Source of the DNA: Eubacterium sp.
GTDB taxonomy: Bacteria > Bacillota > Clostridia > Lachnospirales > Lachnospiraceae
Length of the DNA: 64,000 nt
Reading direction: 5' to 3'
NCBI GenBank assembly: GCA_017433825.1
Contig: JAFRGL010000003.1
Span: forward strand, 27,045 to 91,044
Below the pieces are notes generated by a model that was not told the DNA's origin, searched no databases, and was given only the letters and a program-made list of their open reading frames with translations. Shown here in pieces: positions 11,985 to 41,704 of this stretch (its first letter is position 1; each line of letters opens with the position of its first letter). Position numbers and translations under genes: made by a program.

Positions 11985-13889
11985 CTACAGATTCTTCACG
12001 AACAGGCAGCGGATGGCATTTAAAACTGCCAGAATCATCACGCCCACGTCGGCGATGATGGCAATCCACATGTTGGCGATGCCGAAGGCCGCCAGTATCA
12101 GGCAGGCAATCTTAACCCCGAGGGCAAAGGTGATGTTCTGTTTGACAATCCGCAGGCATTTGCGGGAAATTTTGATGGCCTTGGGAATCTTTAAGGGATC
12201 GTCATCCATCAGGACGATGTCCGCCGCCTCAATGGCCGCGTCCGAACCCAGGGCACCCATGGCAATGCCGATATCGGCCCGGGAAAGCACCGGCGCGTCG
12301 TTGATGCCGTCGCCGACAAAGGCCAGTTTCTTTTTATCCGTGCATTCCTTCAGCAGCTCTTCCACCGCCTCCACCTTGTCGGAGGGAAGCAGTTCCGCCC
12401 GGAAATCGGTAAGGCCCACCTCCGCAGCCACCTTTTCGGCTACGGATTTCGCGTCGCCGGTCAGCATGACGGTCTTCTCCACGCCGGCCTTTTTCAGCTG
12501 CTGCATGGCTTCTTTGGAGCTGGGCTTCAGTTCGTCGGAAATGACGATGTGTCCGGCGTATGTACCGTCAAGGGCCACGTGGATGATGGTGCCGGTATGG
12601 TGGCAGGGAATCGCCTCCACGCCTATCTTCGTCATCAGTTTTTCATTGCCGATGGCCACTTCCACGTCATCCACCTTCGCAATGATGCCGTGGCCGGAGA
12701 TTTCCTGAACGTCGGAAACCCTGGAACGGTCCACATTTCTCGCGTAGGCGTTAATCAGGCTCTGGCTTATGGGATGGGAGGAATGACACTCCGCCAGCGC
12801 CGCATATTCCAGAAGCGTTTTCTCATCAATGGGGCTGTGATGGATGGCCGTCACCTCGAAATTGCCCTTTGTAATGGTTCCGGTCTTGTCAAACGCCACC
12901 ACCCGGACCTCAGAGAGAATTTCCAGGAAGTTGGAGCCTTTGACCAGTACGCCTTCCCGGCTTGCCCCGCCGATGCCGGCAAAGAAGCTTAACGGAATGC
13001 TGATAACCACCGCACACGGACAGCTGATGACCAGGAAGGTGCAGGCACGCATGATCCAGTCACGCCACAGCAGACCGGTACTTGCATAGTTACCCAGATG
13101 GAAAGCCATGCAGATAAGGGGCGGGGCAATGGCCAGCGCCAGCGCAATATAGCAGACGATAGGCGTATATACCCGGGCAAATTTGGAGATAAAGTTTTCG
13201 GATTTGGACTTCCGGGAAGCCGCGTTTTCCACCAGCTCCAGAATCTTGGAAGCGGTGGATTCGTCGAATTCCGCCGTTGTCCGGATGTACAGAACACCTG
13301 TCATGTTAATGCTGCCGGACAGTACTTCGCTGCCCTCCGCCACATCCACAGGCCTGCTCTCGCCGGTCAGCGCACTGGTATTCAAAGCCGAATGGCCTTC
13401 CGTAACCACGCCGTCGATGGGAATCTTCTCACCGGGCTTTACCACGATGATGCTGCCGGCTTCCACTTCATCCGGGTCCACCTGCTGCAGTTCCCCGTCC
13501 ACTTCAATATTGGCGTAATCCGGACGGATGTCCATCAGTTCGGAGATGTTCCGGCGGCTTTTGCCCACCGCATAGCTCTGGAAAAGCTCGCCCACCTGGT
13601 ACAGAAGCATAACCGCCACGCCTTCGCCGTATTCTCCCAGTACGATGGCGCCTATGGTGGCGATGGTCATCAGGAAGTTTTCGTCAAAAACCTGCCGGTT
13701 TAAAATACCCTTTCCCGCTTTCCTTAAAATATCATAGCCCACCAGCAGGTAAGGTATCAGAAACAGAATGATTAATGCCGGAAGCGGCAGGCTCACCTTC
13801 CAGATCTCCTCGGAAATCAGGAACACCGGCACCCAGAGGATCGCAGCGATAATAATACGAATCAGTAGATTTTTCTGTTTTTTATTCAT
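11985..13889 (-). CDS. P1B-2 type Zn/Cd/Pb-exporting P-type ATPase
   Basis: 634 residues without an N-terminal HMA domain. Transmembrane CPC motif (ISCPCAVVIS), phosphorylation motif DKTGTITKGN, HP locus (HSSHPIS), TGDAKSVAEKVA and hinge GDGINDAPVL are intact. Lysine in the helix NITFALGVK and the D-x-G of AIIADVGVM are the metal-site residues that mark the ZntA/CadA subgroup, so Zn, Cd or Pb is likelier than Cu. It pumps metal out of the cytoplasm. The chaperone-like HMA domain, usually fused at the N-terminus, is encoded separately just upstream. A strong hairpin lies between the two genes. Confidence 0.93.
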   Translation of the reverse strand: MNKKQKNLLIRIIIAAILWVPVFLISEEIWKVSLPLPALIILFLIPYLLVGYDILRKAGKGILNRQVFDENFLMTIATIGAIVLGEYGEGVAVMLLYQVGELFQSYAVGKSRRNISELMDIRPDYANIEVDGELQQVDPDEVEAGSIIVVKPGEKIPIDGVVTEGHSALNTSALTGESRPVDVAEGSEVLSGSINMTGVLYIRTTAEFDESTASKILELVENAASRKSKSENFISKFARVYTPIVCYIALALAIAPPLICMAFHLGNYASTGLLWRDWIMRACTFLVISCPCAVVISIPLSFFAGIGGASREGVLVKGSNFLEILSEVRVVAFDKTGTITKGNFEVTAIHHSPIDEKTLLEYAALAECHSSHPISQSLINAYARNVDRSRVSDVQEISGHGIIAKVDDVEVAIGNEKLMTKIGVEAIPCHHTGTIIHVALDGTYAGHIVISDELKPSSKEAMQQLKKAGVEKTVMLTGDAKSVAEKVAAEVGLTDFRAELLPSDKVEAVEELLKECTDKKKLAFVGDGINDAPVLSRADIGIAMGALGSDAAIEAADIVLMDDDPLKIPKAIKISRKCLRIVKQNITFALGVKIACLILAAFGIANMWIAIIADVGVMILAVLNAIRCLFVKNL

Positions 13890-13968: not shown

Positions 13969-14187
13969 TCAGATATAAACTTCGCAGTCGTCTTCGACCT
14001 TTTTGCAGTTGCTGCGTACGTTTTTCATCACGTCGTCCACGTCTGCGCCGTCTTCGAATTCGACCTTCATCTTCAGCGTCATGAAGCTGACAACCGCGTC
14101 CTTTACGCCCTCCGTCTTTTTGGCGGCAACTTCCATCTTCTCGGCGCAGGCTGCGCAGTCCACATCAATCTTGTATGATTTCTTCAA
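13969..14187 (-). CDS. Stand-alone HMA-domain metal-binding protein (CopZ-like)
   Basis: 72 residues, one heavy-metal-associated fold. The metal-binding loop is VDCAACAEKME, a CxxC motif in the first beta-alpha turn, followed by GVKDAVVSFMTLKMKVEF. It probably binds the metal exported by the ATPase encoded next and hands it over. In relatives the same domain is fused to the ATPase, so this is a split arrangement. It is the first gene of the operon; its promoter lies about 100 nt upstream and carries the CG-box shared with the nickel-type operon. Confidence 0.93.
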   Translation of the reverse strand: MKKSYKIDVDCAACAEKMEVAAKKTEGVKDAVVSFMTLKMKVEFEDGADVDDVMKNVRSNCKKVEDDCEVYI

Positions 14188-14258: not shown

Positions 14259-14300
14259 ATTATGACATATTCTTTCCGGAAATACAAGCCCCCCGGGGGG
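14259..14300 (-). promoter_or_regulatory. Promoter with C6G6 box upstream of the metal-export operon
   Basis: Minus strand: six C then six G (14300-14289), one base, -35 TTGTAT (14287-14282), 17-nt spacer containing CCGGAAAG, and -10 CATAAT (14264-14259). A 7-bp stem (GGGGGAC, AGAAA loop, GTCCCCC) also overlaps the C-run. The same layout precedes the NikA-like operon at 35838. G/C-tract boxes are typical of CsoR/RcnR-family metal-sensor operators; assignment to that family is inference. Confidence 0.6.
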
Positions 14301-35837: not shown

Positions 35838-35879
35838 CCCCCGGGGGGGTTTGTACCCCGGAAAGCCTCTGTTTATACT
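35838..35879 (+). promoter_or_regulatory. Promoter with C5G7 box upstream of the NikA-like operon
   Basis: Five C and seven G (35838-35849), one base, -35 TTGTAC (35851-35856), 17-nt spacer containing CCGGAAAG, -10 TATACT (35874-35879). The start codon follows 68 nt later. The rest of the 305-nt gap shows no gene. The arrangement repeats that at 14259-14300 base for base in spacing, so a shared metal sensor is likely. Confidence 0.65.
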
Positions 35880-35947: not shown

Positions 35948-37552
35948 ATGAAAAAGAAATTTGCAGCACTTGTACTTGCTTTCGTGACCGCTGCTGCGCT
36001 TACAGCCTGCGGCGGCTCCGGCAGTTCCTCTTCTGCCGGCAGCGAAGGCACCGGCACATCTTCCGCAGTATCGGAGAACACAGCCGCCGTTTCCGAAGCC
36101 ACGGAAGAAAGCACGGCAGCCGAAGGCAAAATCCTCCGTCTCGGCGAAAGTTTTGCCTATCCCAGTCTGGACGTTCACAAAGACTACTGCGGCTGGTATT
36201 CTTCCATTTATGGCATGAGCGAGACCCTGTTTAAGACAAATGACGATCTTTCCCTGTCTCCGCTGCTGGCGGAAGGCTATTCCGTAAGCAATGATGACCT
36301 TACATGGACCATTTCCATTAACCCGTATGTGAAATTCTCCAACGGAACCTCATTAACGGCAGACATGGCAGCCAGAAACCTGGCCCGTCTTGCGGAAACA
36401 AACGAGCGGTTTGCCTATCTGGCGGATTTCGATATTTCCGCCCCCGACGACACTACCCTGGTCATCACCACGCCTGAAGTTTATCCGACCCTTCTCATCG
36501 ACCTTGCCGCCCCGGAAACCGGCATTATGGATCTGGACGGCACAACGGATTTCGACAACGCGCCTGTTTATACCGGCCCCTTTGTTGTAAAATCCTTTGA
36601 GCCGGAAGGCGATGTTGAAGTAGTAAAAAATGAGAATTACTGGAACGGTGATGTGAAGCTGGACGGCGCTGTCTTCTATTATCTGCCTGACGATGAAAGC
36701 AAGCTCGAAGCCATGCAGGCCGGCGATATTGACGGCTATACCAGCGTGACCGCGGCCGCAAAGCAGCTTTACGCTGCAGAACCGGACCGCTACACCCTGA
36801 CCGAAATTCCCGCCACCAGGCTTCAGTTCTACGTCTTGAACGAGAACCGTATGGACGATGCCGTACGCGAAGCCGTAAACCTCCTGGTTGACTGTGACCA
36901 TATCGCCGCATATCTGGGCGGAACGGTTACCGCCGCAGTCGGCCCCTTTGCCGCAACGGCTCCTTACGGCCAGGTTGAGAAGCCCGCTCCCGACGCTGCA
37001 GCTGCTGCTGCCGTCCTGGAAGGAGACGGTTATGTGAAGAACGCGGACGGCTTCTATGAGAAAGACGGCCAGGTACTGACGCTGAACGTCTGCTACTATA
37101 AGGCAAGGTCCCTGGATACCATTGCCGTCCTTATGGAAGAGGCGTTTACAAATGCCGGCATCAAGGTGACACTGACCCCCGAAGAAGACCCGGATTCCAC
37201 CTATGTCTCCACCGGCGATTTCGACATCGCGCTGTACTGCATGATTGCCGACAAGGCAGGCGATCCCTACTACTGCATCAATGCCCTGTTCAGCGCAGGC
37301 AGCCGCTGGAACATTGCAGGCTTTGCCAGCGAAGAATGTGAGGGCCTGATTCGTAAGCTGCAGTATGAAACCGATCCGGCAGAACGGGCGAAACTCGCGA
37401 ACCAGATTGTACAGATTGTCATCGATGACAATGCGTTCGGCTTTACCGGCCTGTTCAACAAGACCACCGTTACCGCTCCCGGGGTGACCGGCATTGCGGA
37501 AACCTGCCCCTTCGATTTCTACGGAATCGACAGGGACACGGATATTAAGTAA
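35948..37552 (+). CDS. Substrate-binding lipoprotein, family 5 (NikA-like)
   Basis: 534 residues from the ATG at 35948 (GGAAAGGAAAG upstream). Signal peptide and lipobox L-T-A-C at about residue 20 anchor it outside the membrane; a Ser/Ala/Glu linker follows to about 60. The SBP_bac_5 fold is shown by LSPLLAEGYSVSNDDLTWT, NPYVKFSNGTSLTADMAARN, VVKNENYWNG and the C-terminal DDNAFGFTGLF. The N-terminal lobe resembles NikA more than OppA and the metal-box promoter supports nickel or a metal chelate, but peptide binding is not excluded. It is the first gene of a five-gene ABC importer. Confidence 0.85.
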   Translation: MKKKFAALVLAFVTAAALTACGGSGSSSSAGSEGTGTSSAVSENTAAVSEATEESTAAEGKILRLGESFAYPSLDVHKDYCGWYSSIYGMSETLFKTNDDLSLSPLLAEGYSVSNDDLTWTISINPYVKFSNGTSLTADMAARNLARLAETNERFAYLADFDISAPDDTTLVITTPEVYPTLLIDLAAPETGIMDLDGTTDFDNAPVYTGPFVVKSFEPEGDVEVVKNENYWNGDVKLDGAVFYYLPDDESKLEAMQAGDIDGYTSVTAAAKQLYAAEPDRYTLTEIPATRLQFYVLNENRMDDAVREAVNLLVDCDHIAAYLGGTVTAAVGPFAATAPYGQVEKPAPDAAAAAAVLEGDGYVKNADGFYEKDGQVLTLNVCYYKARSLDTIAVLMEEAFTNAGIKVTLTPEEDPDSTYVSTGDFDIALYCMIADKAGDPYYCINALFSAGSRWNIAGFASEECEGLIRKLQYETDPAERAKLANQIVQIVIDDNAFGFTGLFNKTTVTAPGVTGIAETCPFDFYGIDRDTDIK

Positions 37553-37610: not shown

Positions 37611-37636
37611 CCGGGCGCCTTTCTTAAGGTGCCCGG
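37611..37636 (+). other. Intercistronic hairpin between binding protein and permease genes
   Basis: CCGGGCGCCTT pairs with AAGGTGCCCGG (one G-U) around a TCTT loop. No T-run follows and the permease ATG is 13 nt away. It probably protects the upstream mRNA from 3' decay and lowers permease yield, as found in other binding-protein operons. Confidence 0.7.
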
Positions 37637-37649
37637 CTTACTCTATGTT

Positions 37650-38579
37650 ATGGCAAAATATATCGGAAAAAGACTGCTTCACCTTATCTGGATACTGATC
37701 GCTGTAAGCTTCCTGACTTTTCTTCTCATGTATCTGTCCCCCGGCGACGCGGCCACGAAAAAGCTGACCGCCCAGGGGATTGCTGTGTCCTCCGATGTAC
37801 TTGAGAAAACACGGGAGGAAATGGGCTTAAACCGCCCCTTCCTTGTACAGTACGGCAGCTGGGCCGCAGGTCTTTTAAAGGGCGACCTGGGAAGTTCCTT
37901 CAAGGACGGTACGCCTGTATCCGCCAAGCTGGCAAAAGGCCTGGGATATACGCTCACGCTGTCCCTGTCTTCCCTTGCACTTTCTCTTGCCGTATCCGTT
38001 CCTTTAAGCATCCTTACGGCGCTGAAAAAGAATTCCGTCCTGGATTTTATCTTCCGGGTTTTAAGTTTTATCGGTAATTCCCTGCCGAATTTCCTGATTT
38101 CAATCCTTTTAATGTATTTCCTGTGCGTTCGTTTCCGGCTGCTGCCGGTTATCGCGGAAAATAATTTCAAAGGCCTCCTGCTGCCGACGCTGGCGCTTGC
38201 CATCCCGATGTGCAGCCGGTTCTTAAGACAGTTCCGGGCGGAAATACTGGAGCAGATGAGCAAGCCTTATGTGACAGGCGCTTCCTCCAGAGGCCTGAAA
38301 TCCCGCTATATCCTGTTTTCCAACGTCCTGCACAATGCCCTTCCCGGCATGATTACCATCATCGGCCTGTCCATCGGCACCCTCTTAGGCGGCAGCGTGG
38401 TTATCGAAACCATCTTCCGCTGGCCGGGACTCGGCAAGCTGGTCATGGATTCCATTACCGCCCGGGATTACCCGGTTATCCAGGGTTTTGTACTTTTCGC
38501 TGCTGTCGTCTACGTGGTTATCAACCTTGTGACGGATATCATCCATCACAGGCTGGATCCCCGGGTTTCGGGTGTGTGA
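37650..38579 (+). CDS. ABC importer permease, NikB/DppB-like
   Basis: 309 residues from the ATG at 37650; a GTG at 37629 lies inside the hairpin arm and is less likely. No clear Shine-Dalgarno site is present at either. Six hydrophobic helices; N-terminal IGKRLLHLIWILIAVSFLTFLLMYLSPGD block and the DppB-type loop SSRGLKSRYILFSNVLHNALPGM (EAA-like) contact the ATPase. It forms the membrane channel with the next gene product. Confidence 0.92.
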   Translation: MAKYIGKRLLHLIWILIAVSFLTFLLMYLSPGDAATKKLTAQGIAVSSDVLEKTREEMGLNRPFLVQYGSWAAGLLKGDLGSSFKDGTPVSAKLAKGLGYTLTLSLSSLALSLAVSVPLSILTALKKNSVLDFIFRVLSFIGNSLPNFLISILLMYFLCVRFRLLPVIAENNFKGLLLPTLALAIPMCSRFLRQFRAEILEQMSKPYVTGASSRGLKSRYILFSNVLHNALPGMITIIGLSIGTLLGGSVVIETIFRWPGLGKLVMDSITARDYPVIQGFVLFAAVVYVVINLVTDIIHHRLDPRVSGV

Positions 38580-38589
38580 GGTGCGGCAG

Positions 38590-39429
38590 ATGAAAGAAAC
38601 GGTACAAAACAACATCAGGAAAAAGAACAGCCTCCGCCTGCGGATATTCCTCATCCTGGCAGCAGCCCTGGTCGTTATCGCCATCCTGGCGCCGTTTTTC
38701 GCGCCGCACAGTCCGAACGCCACCAGCGCCATGTCCATGAACGCGGCGCCATGCGCCGAATTCCCCTTCGGCTGCGACAGCCTGGGCAGATGCATCTTCT
38801 CCCGGGTGCTGGCAGGAGCCAGGACCTCCGTGCTGTCTGCAGTGGCACTGGTCGCCATCACCTTTTTTGCCGGCACCTTCGCCGGAATGGCAGCCGGCTG
38901 GTACGGCGGCATACTTGACACGGTAATCATGCGGATTGCGGACGTGATGCTGGCCTTCCCGCAGATGGTGCTGGCCATCGCGGTGGCGGGCATTTTAGGC
39001 GGCGGCATGGGCAACGCCATGCTGGCTTTGGGCATTACCGGCTGGACGCTGTACGCCAGGCTTGCACGCACCCAGGTGCTGGCGCTAAAGGAGGAGCCCT
39101 TCGTCAGCCACGCCCGGCTCTGCGGCTTTTCCGGATTTTCCATTTTATTTAAAACCCTCCTGCCCAATATGTCCGGCCCCCTTATCGTCAACGCCGCGAC
39201 ACAGCTGGGCACCATGATGGTGGGCATTGCCGGCCTTTCCTTCTTAGGGATCGGCGTTACCGAACCGCAGGCGGAATGGGGTAGTATGATCAGCTTCTCC
39301 CGTGCCTATATCCAGCTGGCCCCCTGGGCGGTGATGGCACCGGCCCTTGCCATTATCATCACGGTCATGATCTTCAACTGCCTGGGCGACAGCCTCAGGG
39401 ATTATCTGGATGTGGAGGCGAAGCAATGA
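38590..39429 (+). CDS. ABC importer permease, NikC/DppC-like
   Basis: 279 residues from the ATG at 38590, chosen because GAGGTG lies 6 nt upstream. The N-terminal helix and FAPHSPNATSAMSMNAAP...FGCDSLGRCIFSRVLAGARTS are typical of the second permease; the EAA-like loop is HARLCGFSGFSILFKTLLPNM. It begins 10 nt after the first permease and its stop overlaps the next start (ATGA). Confidence 0.93.
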   Translation: MKETVQNNIRKKNSLRLRIFLILAAALVVIAILAPFFAPHSPNATSAMSMNAAPCAEFPFGCDSLGRCIFSRVLAGARTSVLSAVALVAITFFAGTFAGMAAGWYGGILDTVIMRIADVMLAFPQMVLAIAVAGILGGGMGNAMLALGITGWTLYARLARTQVLALKEEPFVSHARLCGFSGFSILFKTLLPNMSGPLIVNAATQLGTMMVGIAGLSFLGIGVTEPQAEWGSMISFSRAYIQLAPWAVMAPALAIIITVMIFNCLGDSLRDYLDVEAKQ

Positions 39430-40154
39430 AAAACGGAAAGCCTCTTCTTACAGCAGAAAACCTGTGTGCCGGCTATAACGGCACCCGAATCCTGGAAAAT
39501 GTATCCTTCACCCTGCATGAGAAGGAAATCATCTGCATCGTGGGAATAAGCGGCAGCGGGAAATCCACGCTTTTAAAAGCCATAATGGGCACCTTCCCCG
39601 GCACGGAAATTTATTCCGGCGATATCCGGCTTTCCGGCGTCAGCCTGCCCTCGCTGCCGGCGCGTCAGCTGGCCAGGTTTACCACGGAGCATATCGGCAT
39701 GGTTTTCCAGAGCCCCGGCGCTTCCTTCAACCCCATCCGGAGCTACAGGCAGCAGTTTACCGAAACGCTGAAAAGCCACGGCCGTTATAATCCCGAAACT
39801 TTTTTTGCACAGGTGGACGAAACCTTCGGCAAGCTCGGGCTTACCGACACCCGAAGGATTTTATCCCTCTGCCCTTACGAGATGAGCGGCGGCATGAACC
39901 AGCGGATTGCCATTGCCCTGGCACTTTTAATGAAGCAGGAAATCCTGCTGTCGGACGAACCCACCAGCGCATTGGACGCCACAATCCAGCTGCAGGTGGC
40001 CAAAGAACTGAAAAATCTTCCGGAAAAAAGCGGTATTTCCCAGATTATCGTAACCCACAACCTGGCCCTGGCGCGTTTTCTCGCCGACAAGGTCTACATC
40101 ATGCGCGAAGGGAAACTTACCCTTGCGCCGGAAACCGGGGAGGTGGTATTGTGA
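39426..40154 (+). CDS. ABC importer ATPase, NikD/DppD-like
   Basis: 242 residues. Walker A GISGSGKSTLLKAI, Q-loop FQSPGASFNP, signature MSGGMNQRIAIALAL, Walker B ILLSDEPTSALD, H-loop THN. It overlaps both neighbours by 4 nt. It lacks the C-terminal extension with cluster cysteines seen in many Dpp/OppD proteins, again nearer NikD. Confidence 0.94.
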   Translation: MKNGKPLLTAENLCAGYNGTRILENVSFTLHEKEIICIVGISGSGKSTLLKAIMGTFPGTEIYSGDIRLSGVSLPSLPARQLARFTTEHIGMVFQSPGASFNPIRSYRQQFTETLKSHGRYNPETFFAQVDETFGKLGLTDTRRILSLCPYEMSGGMNQRIAIALALLMKQEILLSDEPTSALDATIQLQVAKELKNLPEKSGISQIIVTHNLALARFLADKVYIMREGKLTLAPETGEVVL

Positions 40155-40945
40155 CAATACTGGAATGCAGGAACCTGTACAAGCGGTATGTGCGCAATGA
40201 CGTTTCCGCGGAAGCGCTTATCGATGTGAGCATGCAGCTTGCAAAAGGCGAAGTCCTGGGCATTGCCGGCATGAGCGGCAGCGGGAAAAGCACCCTGCTG
40301 AAAATGATAAGCGGCCTGGAAAAGCCGGACAAAGGAGAGCTTTACCTGGAGGGCAGACCGCTTCTGGTTCCCCGCAGCCGCGAACAGTATCGGAAAATCC
40401 AGATGATTTTCCAGGATCCGGCCTCCTCCTTTAATCCGAGGCGGAAAATCTCCGTTTCCATCCGGGAAGCGGTACGGAAACTGAACGGCAAAGAAGCAGC
40501 CTGCGACCTTGCTGCTCTTGCGGAATCCGTGGGGCTTGATCCGGCTCTGGCAGACCGGTATCCCGGCGAGCTAAGCGGTGGTCAGTGCCAGCGTTTTGCC
40601 ATCGCAAGGGCCCTGGCCTCCAATCCGGATATCCTGCTGTGCGACGAAATCACCAGCGCCTTGGATGTAACCACCCAGGACCTTATTCTGGATCTCATGA
40701 CAGATATCTGCGCCAAAAGCAGCCTGTCCGTCATCATGGTGTCCCACGACCTGGCGGTTTTAAGCCGCATGTGCAGCCGGATTATCGTTATGACGGAGGG
40801 CCGGATTGTGGAAGAAGGCCCGACAGAGGTCGTTTTATTCAACCCGCAGGAAGAATACACAAAAACGCTGGTTGAATCCGTGCTGGCACTGGATCCGGAC
40901 GCCTTCACGCCGAAAAAGGCCTTATCCGGCATACCGCGCGAATAA
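40151..40945 (+). CDS. ABC importer ATPase, NikE/DppF-like
   Basis: 264 residues, GTG start overlapping the previous stop (GTGA), hence translational coupling. Walker A GMSGSGKSTLLKMI, FQDPASSFNPRR, signature LSGGQCQRFAIARAL, Walker B ILLCDEITSALD (Ile in place of Pro after Glu), H-loop SHDLA. The C-terminus has the usual YTKTLVESV segment. It completes the importer. Confidence 0.94.
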   Translation: MTILECRNLYKRYVRNDVSAEALIDVSMQLAKGEVLGIAGMSGSGKSTLLKMISGLEKPDKGELYLEGRPLLVPRSREQYRKIQMIFQDPASSFNPRRKISVSIREAVRKLNGKEAACDLAALAESVGLDPALADRYPGELSGGQCQRFAIARALASNPDILLCDEITSALDVTTQDLILDLMTDICAKSSLSVIMVSHDLAVLSRMCSRIIVMTEGRIVEEGPTEVVLFNPQEEYTKTLVESVLALDPDAFTPKKALSGIPRE

Positions 40946-40972: not shown

Positions 40973-41704
40973 ATGCCTGAACTGGAAGCAAGAGTCAGAC
41001 AATACTGGACCGAACGGGCCGAAAGCTTCGCCCTGGTCCGTAAAAACGAACTGCACGACGCCATCAGCGGACGGTGGCTTGCGGAAATGTATAAACACCT
41101 GCCCGAAGGCCGTCCGCTTGCCATACTGGACGCCGGGTGCGGAACCGGGTATTTCTCCATTATTCTGGCAAAAGAAGGCCATAACCTTACCGGCATCGAT
41201 TTTACGCCTGCCATGGTGGAAGGTGCAAAAAAAGCAGCGGCAGAAGCGGGCGTACAGCCTCAGTTTTTCCTGATGGACGCTTCCGCCACATCTTTTCCGG
41301 ACGAAAGCTTTGACGCCGTCGTCACCCGGAACCTGACCTGGACGCTGCCGGATCCGGAGAAAGCCTATAAAGAATGGTTCCGGGTCTTAAAAAAAGGAGG
41401 CATCCTTTTGAACTTTGACGCCGCCTACGCGGATAATGTAAGAAATCACAACCAGAAAGCTTCCTACGTTACGGACAAGGACGTCTACGGCCATGTCGGC
41501 ATTACGCCGGCGCTCTCCCGGGAAAACGCGGAAATCACCCTGGCCATGCCGGCAGGCTACCACCACCGCCCCATCTGGGACCTGCTTCTTGCGGAACGGG
41601 CGGGCTTTGCCGTCTTCGGCTCGGACAAATCAGCGGGAGAACGCATCCTTCAGGAAAAAGACCTTCCGGACGCGCCGCTGTTCCTGGTATGGGCGGAAAA
41701 ATAA
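40973..41704 (+). CDS. Class I SAM-dependent methyltransferase in the importer operon
   Basis: 243 residues. Motif I ILDAGCGTGYFSIIL, motif II around ITGIDFTPAMVEGA-type residues, and the UbiE-like RNLTWTLPDPEKAYKEWFRVLKKGG block. It begins 27 nt after the ATPase gene, before the shared terminator, so it is part of the operon. A small-molecule substrate connected to the imported compound, for instance a metal-binding ligand, is a reasonable guess, but nothing in the sequence identifies it. Confidence 0.88.
   Translation: MPELEARVRQYWTERAESFALVRKNELHDAISGRWLAEMYKHLPEGRPLAILDAGCGTGYFSIILAKEGHNLTGIDFTPAMVEGAKKAAAEAGVQPQFFLMDASATSFPDESFDAVVTRNLTWTLPDPEKAYKEWFRVLKKGGILLNFDAAYADNVRNHNQKASYVTDKDVYGHVGITPALSRENAEITLAMPAGYHHRPIWDLLLAERAGFAVFGSDKSAGERILQEKDLPDAPLFLVWAEK

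Follow-up and report, generated by a model that had tools for sequence, protein, structure and literature searches.

A C-tract/G-tract box shared by the promoters of a NikABCDE-like importer and a P1B-type exporter in Eubacterium sp., a putative operator of an InrS-like DUF156 sensor

Two similar promoters before an importer and an exporter operon

The window, i.e. the whole stretch of 64,000 nt analyzed in this study, comes from the genome of a Eubacterium sp. and contains two metal-transport operons on opposite strands (Table 1). The plus-strand operon encodes a NikABCDE-like importer and ends with a class I methyltransferase gene, and the minus-strand operon encodes a small HMA protein and a P1B-type heavy-metal ATPase. 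In the importer, NikB (359.1) scored above the cut-off (350) of the NCBIfam model Opp2B for nickel ABC transporter permeases; the NikC, NikD and NikE-like proteins were under the cut-offs of the nickel models, and the best NCBIfam model of the NikA-like lipoprotein, Opp5A_nikA, gave 261.7 bits, under its cut-off of 600.

Table 1. Features of the two window operons, and cobalamin riboswitches at related loci
Feature	Position	Strand	Basis
C5G7 core before the importer operon (putative operator)	35838..35849	+	Sequence; unique pattern; held-out profile 24.2
T between importer core and -35	35850	+	Sequence
Importer -35 TTGTAC	35851-35856	+	Sequence
Importer spacer, 17 nt	35857-35873	+	Sequence
Importer -10 TATACT	35874-35879	+	Sequence
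NikA-like substrate-binding lipoprotein (SBP_bac_5)	35948..37552	+	Pfam
NikB, NikC, NikD, NikE-like permeases and ATPases	37629..40945	+	Pfam
Class I SAM methyltransferase, last gene of the importer operon	40973..41704	+	Pfam Methyltransf_11
C6G6 core before the exporter operon (putative operator)	14289..14300	-	Sequence; held-out profile 27.9
C between exporter core and -35	14288	-	Sequence
Exporter -35 TTGTAT	14287-14282	-	Sequence
Exporter spacer, 17 nt	14281-14265	-	Sequence
Exporter -10 CATAAT	14264-14259	-	Sequence
HMA metal-binding protein, 72 aa, TTG start	13969..14187	-	Pfam HMA (scanned 13970-14187)
P1B-type heavy-metal ATPase, nearest the Cd/Zn subfamily	11985..13889	-	TIGR01512, 523.4 bits (cut-off 313.5)
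Cobalamin riboswitches before NikA-type operons, one in the same genome	L081 13020-13242; L188 9723-9906; L190 14687-14868		

The architecture that the preliminary description had proposed for both promoters was borne out: each consists of a 12-bp C/G core, one further base, a TTGTA[C/T] -35 element, a 17-bp spacer and a -10 element, and the start codons lie about 100 nt from the box, as had been claimed (98 nt from the importer core to the ATG at 35948, and 101 nt from the exporter core to the TTG at 14187). One part of that proposal failed. The spacer octamer CCGGAAAG, which had been counted as a shared element, was rejected as a part of the motif because it occurs in only two of the 23 sites aligned below, one base out of register, and is absent from the other 21.

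The claim that the likeness goes beyond chance was upheld by several searches. In the window, CCCCSGGGGG gave seven overlapping matches at two places, against 0.68 expected. In the whole 2.6-Mb genome, the pattern CCCCNGGGGGN{0,4}TTGTA was found at these two places only (three overlapping matches), and the reversed-pattern control gave no match. A held-out profile was built from 20 sites in other genera, leaving aside those of the window and of the congener. It placed the exporter and importer sites at the top of the window (27.9 and 24.2, respectively), ahead of displaced or reverse-strand matches to the same box (12.6 and 10.6) and of the next place, with 4.2. The controls for this profile were lower than both sites, with 16.8 as the best score among 40 Markov-1 sequences and 11.2 for the reversed window.

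The site and its genes across the family

Alignment of 23 promoters from 15 genomes (49 columns) revealed a uniform build. This alignment differs from an earlier list of 24 sites in that G251_x, which faces no clear gene, and G103_duf, the other side of a box already included, were left out, and G001_nik was added. All 23 promoters aligned without a gap and had the same register from the core to the -35 element. The 12-bp core begins with CCCC and ends in G; it is preceded by T or A in all 23 sites (column 6), itself preceded by A in 22 (column 5), and is followed by C in 20, T in two and G in one. C and G tracts were both present in all sites, with no base between them in the two window sites and 0 to 3 bases across the set, four broken G tracts apart. 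Behind the G tract runs CTTRTA, and the -35 element starts with TT in 23 and with TTR in 22 of the 23 sites. Spacers of 16-18 bp were observed in the 24-site list, which reads the -35 element of the window importer one base early (spacer 18), and of 17 bp in the window. A single base separates the core from the -35 element, which therefore forms the right arm of the palindrome; this arm (TTR) is conserved in 22 of 23 sites. In the left arm, columns 5 and 6 are conserved as described above and columns 1-4 only weakly, and the left arms of the window sites are poor.

The box was also found at related importers. Five NikA-like orthologues with more than 50% identity were present in a 100-genome sample of the family (G071, G010, G103, G016 and G104), and all five had the box at the importer operon or at its divergent neighbor. 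In G103 the region's only box faces a divergently oriented hydrolase gene; G104 has an irregular core (CCCCTGGGGAGG). The congener G001, which is syntenic with the window, carries the importer box (L189 8821). For NikA homologues of 40-42% identity (G048 and G076), no box was found at the operon head. Pattern searches were less suitable for a wider survey: the exact pattern was too strict (0 of 40 relatives), and a looser one matched 24 of 250 genomes, but also inside coding ORFs.

A sequence-only profile (E<=0.03) was run on 250 genomes of the family, probably Lachnospiraceae, in a draw of nearly one genome per genus, and detected the site in 59 of them. We inspected 33 loci, i.e. the best match in each of 30 genomes and the remaining sites of the window's own genome, and identified the gene that follows each site on its strand by BLAST comparison with proteins of the window or of relatives and by Pfam, using longest-ORF calls of which some are false. 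The next gene was linked to uptake in 28 of the 33 loci, and in 16 of 19 when the 14 training loci were left aside. These genes were SBP_bac_5-like (7), NikB-like (2), CbiM (5), AstE/AspA-like (5), methyltransferase (6, one of them 898 nt from its site) and FecCD-type importer genes (3). The other five loci had ApbE, a LUD-domain protein, an unclear ABC ORF, a DJ-1/PfpI protein and the HMA-P1B operon of the window. The site labelled G251_lar lies behind a PP-loop gene and faces a methyltransferase gene; we take the former to be LarE-like, and the names LarE and LarB are presumptive here, as Pfam gives only the PP-loop and AIRC domains.

In the window's own genome (G000), the search found four sites, two in the window and two on contig 19, and not the many copies before unrelated genes that would speak against a regulon. 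The strongest box of the genome (C19:39666, 2e-6) precedes an operon of Peripla_BP_2, FecCD, ATPase and methyltransferase genes (L228 14747-18558), and a weaker one (C19:48753, 0.015) precedes a lone methyltransferase gene. The contig-19 sites were not in the profile; the window sites helped to build it, and their E-values are therefore too favorable. The small regulon suggested by the preliminary description thus takes the form of two importer operons, a lone methyltransferase gene and the exporter operon. Paralogous class I methyltransferases occur in three of the four boxed operons of this genome (window 40973-41704, L228 and L229) and recur beside boxes in other genera.

Among the loci examined, the exporter belongs to the boxed set in the window's species only. 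In two genomes of the same genus, G001 and G003, a NikA' operon with a cobalamin riboswitch precedes the ATPase gene. G080 has the same gene order, a NikA' operon and then the ATPase. The idea that the exporter box is the remnant of a lost nikA' operon was rejected, as the NikA'B'C' leader upstream of HMA-P1B in G001 and G003 carries the riboswitch and no box, and G001 has a separate promoter before the HMA gene. In L066, a CsoR-type site was observed behind the P1B ATPase.

It is unlikely that only the importer site is functional, the exporter box having arisen by local coincidence or by recent capture of a promoter, with the ATPase taking part in an unrelated zinc/cadmium response. Such a reading agrees with the P1B loci of other genera, where a box of the C-tract/G-tract kind was found before the ATPase in 0 of 29 and an ArsR homologue within the locus in 22 of 29 (an HMA homologue in 27 of 29), and with the HMA promoter of the congener G001, which keeps the G tract, CTTG and the -10 element, i.e. 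only the G half of the box, and lacks the C tract. However, the exporter site outscored the importer site with the held-out profile, its box keeps the register to the -35 element, and no ArsR homologue was found inside the 1.5 kb flanks of the window's exporter locus. A chance likeness of the two promoters has next to no probability: the spacer octamer is not kept in the other 21 sites, which would suit chance, but the pattern is unique in the genome, both scores exceed the control maximum, and G001 and five other genera have kept the box at the importer operon.

A DUF156 protein as candidate reader

The preliminary description saw no sensor gene in the window and expected one elsewhere, and this proved correct. 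A single DUF156 gene was found in the genome, on contig 12 (L012 7481-8032) next to the genes of a response regulator and a histidine kinase; a second copy may be absent from the assembly, whose completeness is 92.66%. The profile search of this genome gave no site belonging to the DUF156 gene itself. Its product matched PF02583 with 3.5e-25 (88.6 bits, cut-off 22.8), and the best solved structure was InrS (5fmn, 9.8e-16), followed by 6ahx (1.2e-13) and CsoR (4.2e-13). The alignment with InrS covers a His-rich N-terminus (HTHIHVH in our protein and HAHPHVH in InrS) and Cys, His and Cys positions; the nickel-site residues reported for InrS are His21, Cys53, His78 and Cys82. In a tree, the protein grouped with its G001 orthologue and with the box-linked protein of G241 (100/100; bootstrap not settled), and the copper-type DUF156 proteins of these genomes formed a separate group. 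In the window's species and in G001 (L193), the DUF156 protein is extended at its N-terminus by about 90 residues, for which no Pfam model scored above its cut-off.

Across the family, the site and such proteins tended to co-occur. Using E<1e-20 to the G010 protein as a definition, a cut-off chosen after seeing the list, we found DUF156 homologues in 69 of 250 genomes. A strong homologue was present in 51 of the 59 genomes with a site and in 18 of the 191 others and, when the profile-training genomes were excluded, in 37 of 45 versus 18 of 191 (Fisher p 6e-22), counts that are not corrected for phylogeny. Conversely, 18 of the 69 homologue-bearing genomes had no site. In G003, which is of the same genus, neither the DUF156 gene nor the site was found; this genome has a NiCo riboswitch (L190 15959-16036) near methyltransferase and AstE-like genes.

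Site and gene are neighbors in some genomes. In ten (G010, G052, G103, G120, G155, G201, G217, G225, G241 and G249), read by eye from the lists of sites and DUF156 matches, a site lies less than 1 kb from a DUF156 gene, which in G155 and G217 is a weaker copy (4.6e-19 and 6.4e-17, respectively). The DUF156 gene is divergent from the boxed gene in G010 (methyltransferase-Nik), G103 (CbiM), G120 (CbiM) and G241 (amidohydrolase), and in G103 the box has a -35/-10 pair on either side. The sites of G201 and G249 stand directly before the DUF156 gene, in the same direction. Among the 30 best DUF156 loci, taken with 1.5 kb on each side, six had a site (profile score >=18), two of them training sites, so that the DUF156 gene usually lies elsewhere, as in the window's genome. 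No CTT-type box was found in the eight PF02583 loci of the DUF156 gene search. Several further arrangements were observed. In G251, a Ni_insertion (LarC-type) domain and a His-rich DUF156 domain are fused in one 417-aa ORF within a box-bearing cluster (L145 15211-16464), and G091 has a DUF156 gene behind a Ni_insertion gene. The DUF156 protein of G093 (L238 8231-8503) has Phe at the metal-binding Cys position (RDFNDVL), and its gene is about 2.5 kb from a box facing a LUD-domain gene.

As far as sequence can test it, the earlier guess of a CsoR/RcnR-family (DUF156) operator agreed with the InrS-like gene of the genome, the co-occurrence of site and gene, their adjacency in ten genomes and the failure to find NikR in the 250 genomes. 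We thus consider it quite probable that the box is the operator of an InrS-like CsoR/RcnR-family (DUF156) sensor, with repression and likely nickel, as the whole explanation; its most likely reader would be the one DUF156 protein found in the window's own genome. The main competing view is that the box is read by another regulator, activator or repressor, that shares its genomes with the InrS-like gene. Eight of the 59 site genomes have no strong DUF156 homologue (G093, G111, G117, G144, G157, G164, G190 and G224), and the DUF156 gene of the window's genome has no site, is far from the four sites and adjoins a two-component system. On the other hand, the adjacency of site and DUF156 gene in ten genomes, an operator type that resembles those of this family and the failure to find NikR make such a regulator distinctly improbable. 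MerR-type regulators and NikR control metal-transport promoters elsewhere, and control of both window promoters by either was considered, but it is very hard to sustain. MerR-type promoters have a 19-20 bp spacer, which differs from the 17 bp of both window promoters and from the 16-18 bp of the 24-site list, and a NikR regulon was rejected because NikR (PF08753) was found in 0 of 250 family genomes, the window's own included (the control search was positive in 5 of 14).

Metal, direction of response and comparison with known systems

In the mechanism that we favor, the DUF156 protein would bind the box and repress both operons, with nickel as the signal. The -35 hexamer coincides with the base run after the core, and a bound sensor should therefore keep RNA polymerase off both operons; this overlap favors repression by occlusion, as we infer from the promoter layout. 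The predicted regulon would include at least the NikABCDE-like importer with its methyltransferase, the FecCD-type importer with its methyltransferase, the lone methyltransferase and the HMA-P1B ATPase. The metal would most likely be nickel, with cobalt possible, because of the NikABCDE-type, CbiM and Ni_insertion contexts. The NikA' operons (~30% identity) of G001, G003 and contig 18 of the window's genome are preceded by cobalamin riboswitches, the usual mark of cobalt supply (PMC7689651), so the boxed set looks like their complement.

The importer and exporter sites occupy the same promoter position, and the same direction of control is therefore expected for both. A sensor released by metal would let uptake rise with nickel, which is not homeostatic; with metal-strengthened binding, the exporter would be produced under nickel scarcity, a response that would be sensible only if it expels other metals. 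We lean slightly toward metal-strengthened binding, because the set consists mostly of uptake genes. A tentative extension, which we regard as possible rather than probable, is that in this bacterial family an InrS-like DUF156 protein acts in NikR's place as a general repressor of nickel uptake, with nickel as co-repressor, and that the P1B ATPase was added in this species, perhaps for expelling wrong metals that enter with nickel. If so, one repressor would cover NikABCDE-type, CbiM and FecCD-type importers together with the linked methyltransferase and AstE/AspA-like hydrolase, and nickel as co-repressor would be the reverse of characterized DUF156 sensors. According to a review, the known nickel sensors of the family release DNA on metal binding. 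The mostly-uptake set raises the question of whether the present sensor inverts this rule or nickel turns uptake on.

Many genomes of the family have nickel-type importers and yet no NikR was detected among the 250, so it was an open question how they control nickel uptake. This control can now be tested, given an operator defined by a profile, a promoter of fixed layout and a named family of sensors. The methyltransferase and the AstE/AspA-like hydrolase that recur beside the box may take part in uncharacterized steps of nickel acquisition. A survey of the open literature by titles and abstract openings, with most subscription papers outside its scope, found no DUF156-controlled nickel-uptake regulon in Firmicutes.

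Compared with known members of the family, the proposed system shows both shared and distinct features. RcnR of E. coli, described as a Ni/Co sensor with the operator TACT-G6-N-AGTA that controls an exporter, belongs to the same protein family and has a G-tract operator; the set described here is mainly uptake genes, and E. coli nikABCDE is under NikR, which was not found among these genomes. Operators of the DUF156 family are pseudopalindromes with G/C tracts and AT-rich flanks, and in CsoR type 2 sites the tracts are 2-4 bases apart with TAC/GTA alongside (PMC3902906). Our sites share the paired G/C tracts and in part resemble the AT-rich flanks and the pseudopalindrome, and the candidate reader is of the same protein family, whereas the window sites have no base between the tracts and CTTRTA, not TAC/GTA, behind the G tract; a classical CsoR site, ATACCCCCAGGGGGTAT, is carried by L008. 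A close parallel is InrS of Synechocystis PCC 6803, the best solved match of our DUF156 protein, which represses nrsD and also binds upstream of nik and enhances its expression (PMC7055735), and import and export under one DUF156 sensor therefore have a precedent. The two systems differ in that InrS acts in opposite directions on export and import, whereas the same direction is expected here, that our protein has an N-terminal stretch of ~90 aa in addition, and that the sites in other genera mostly stand before uptake genes.
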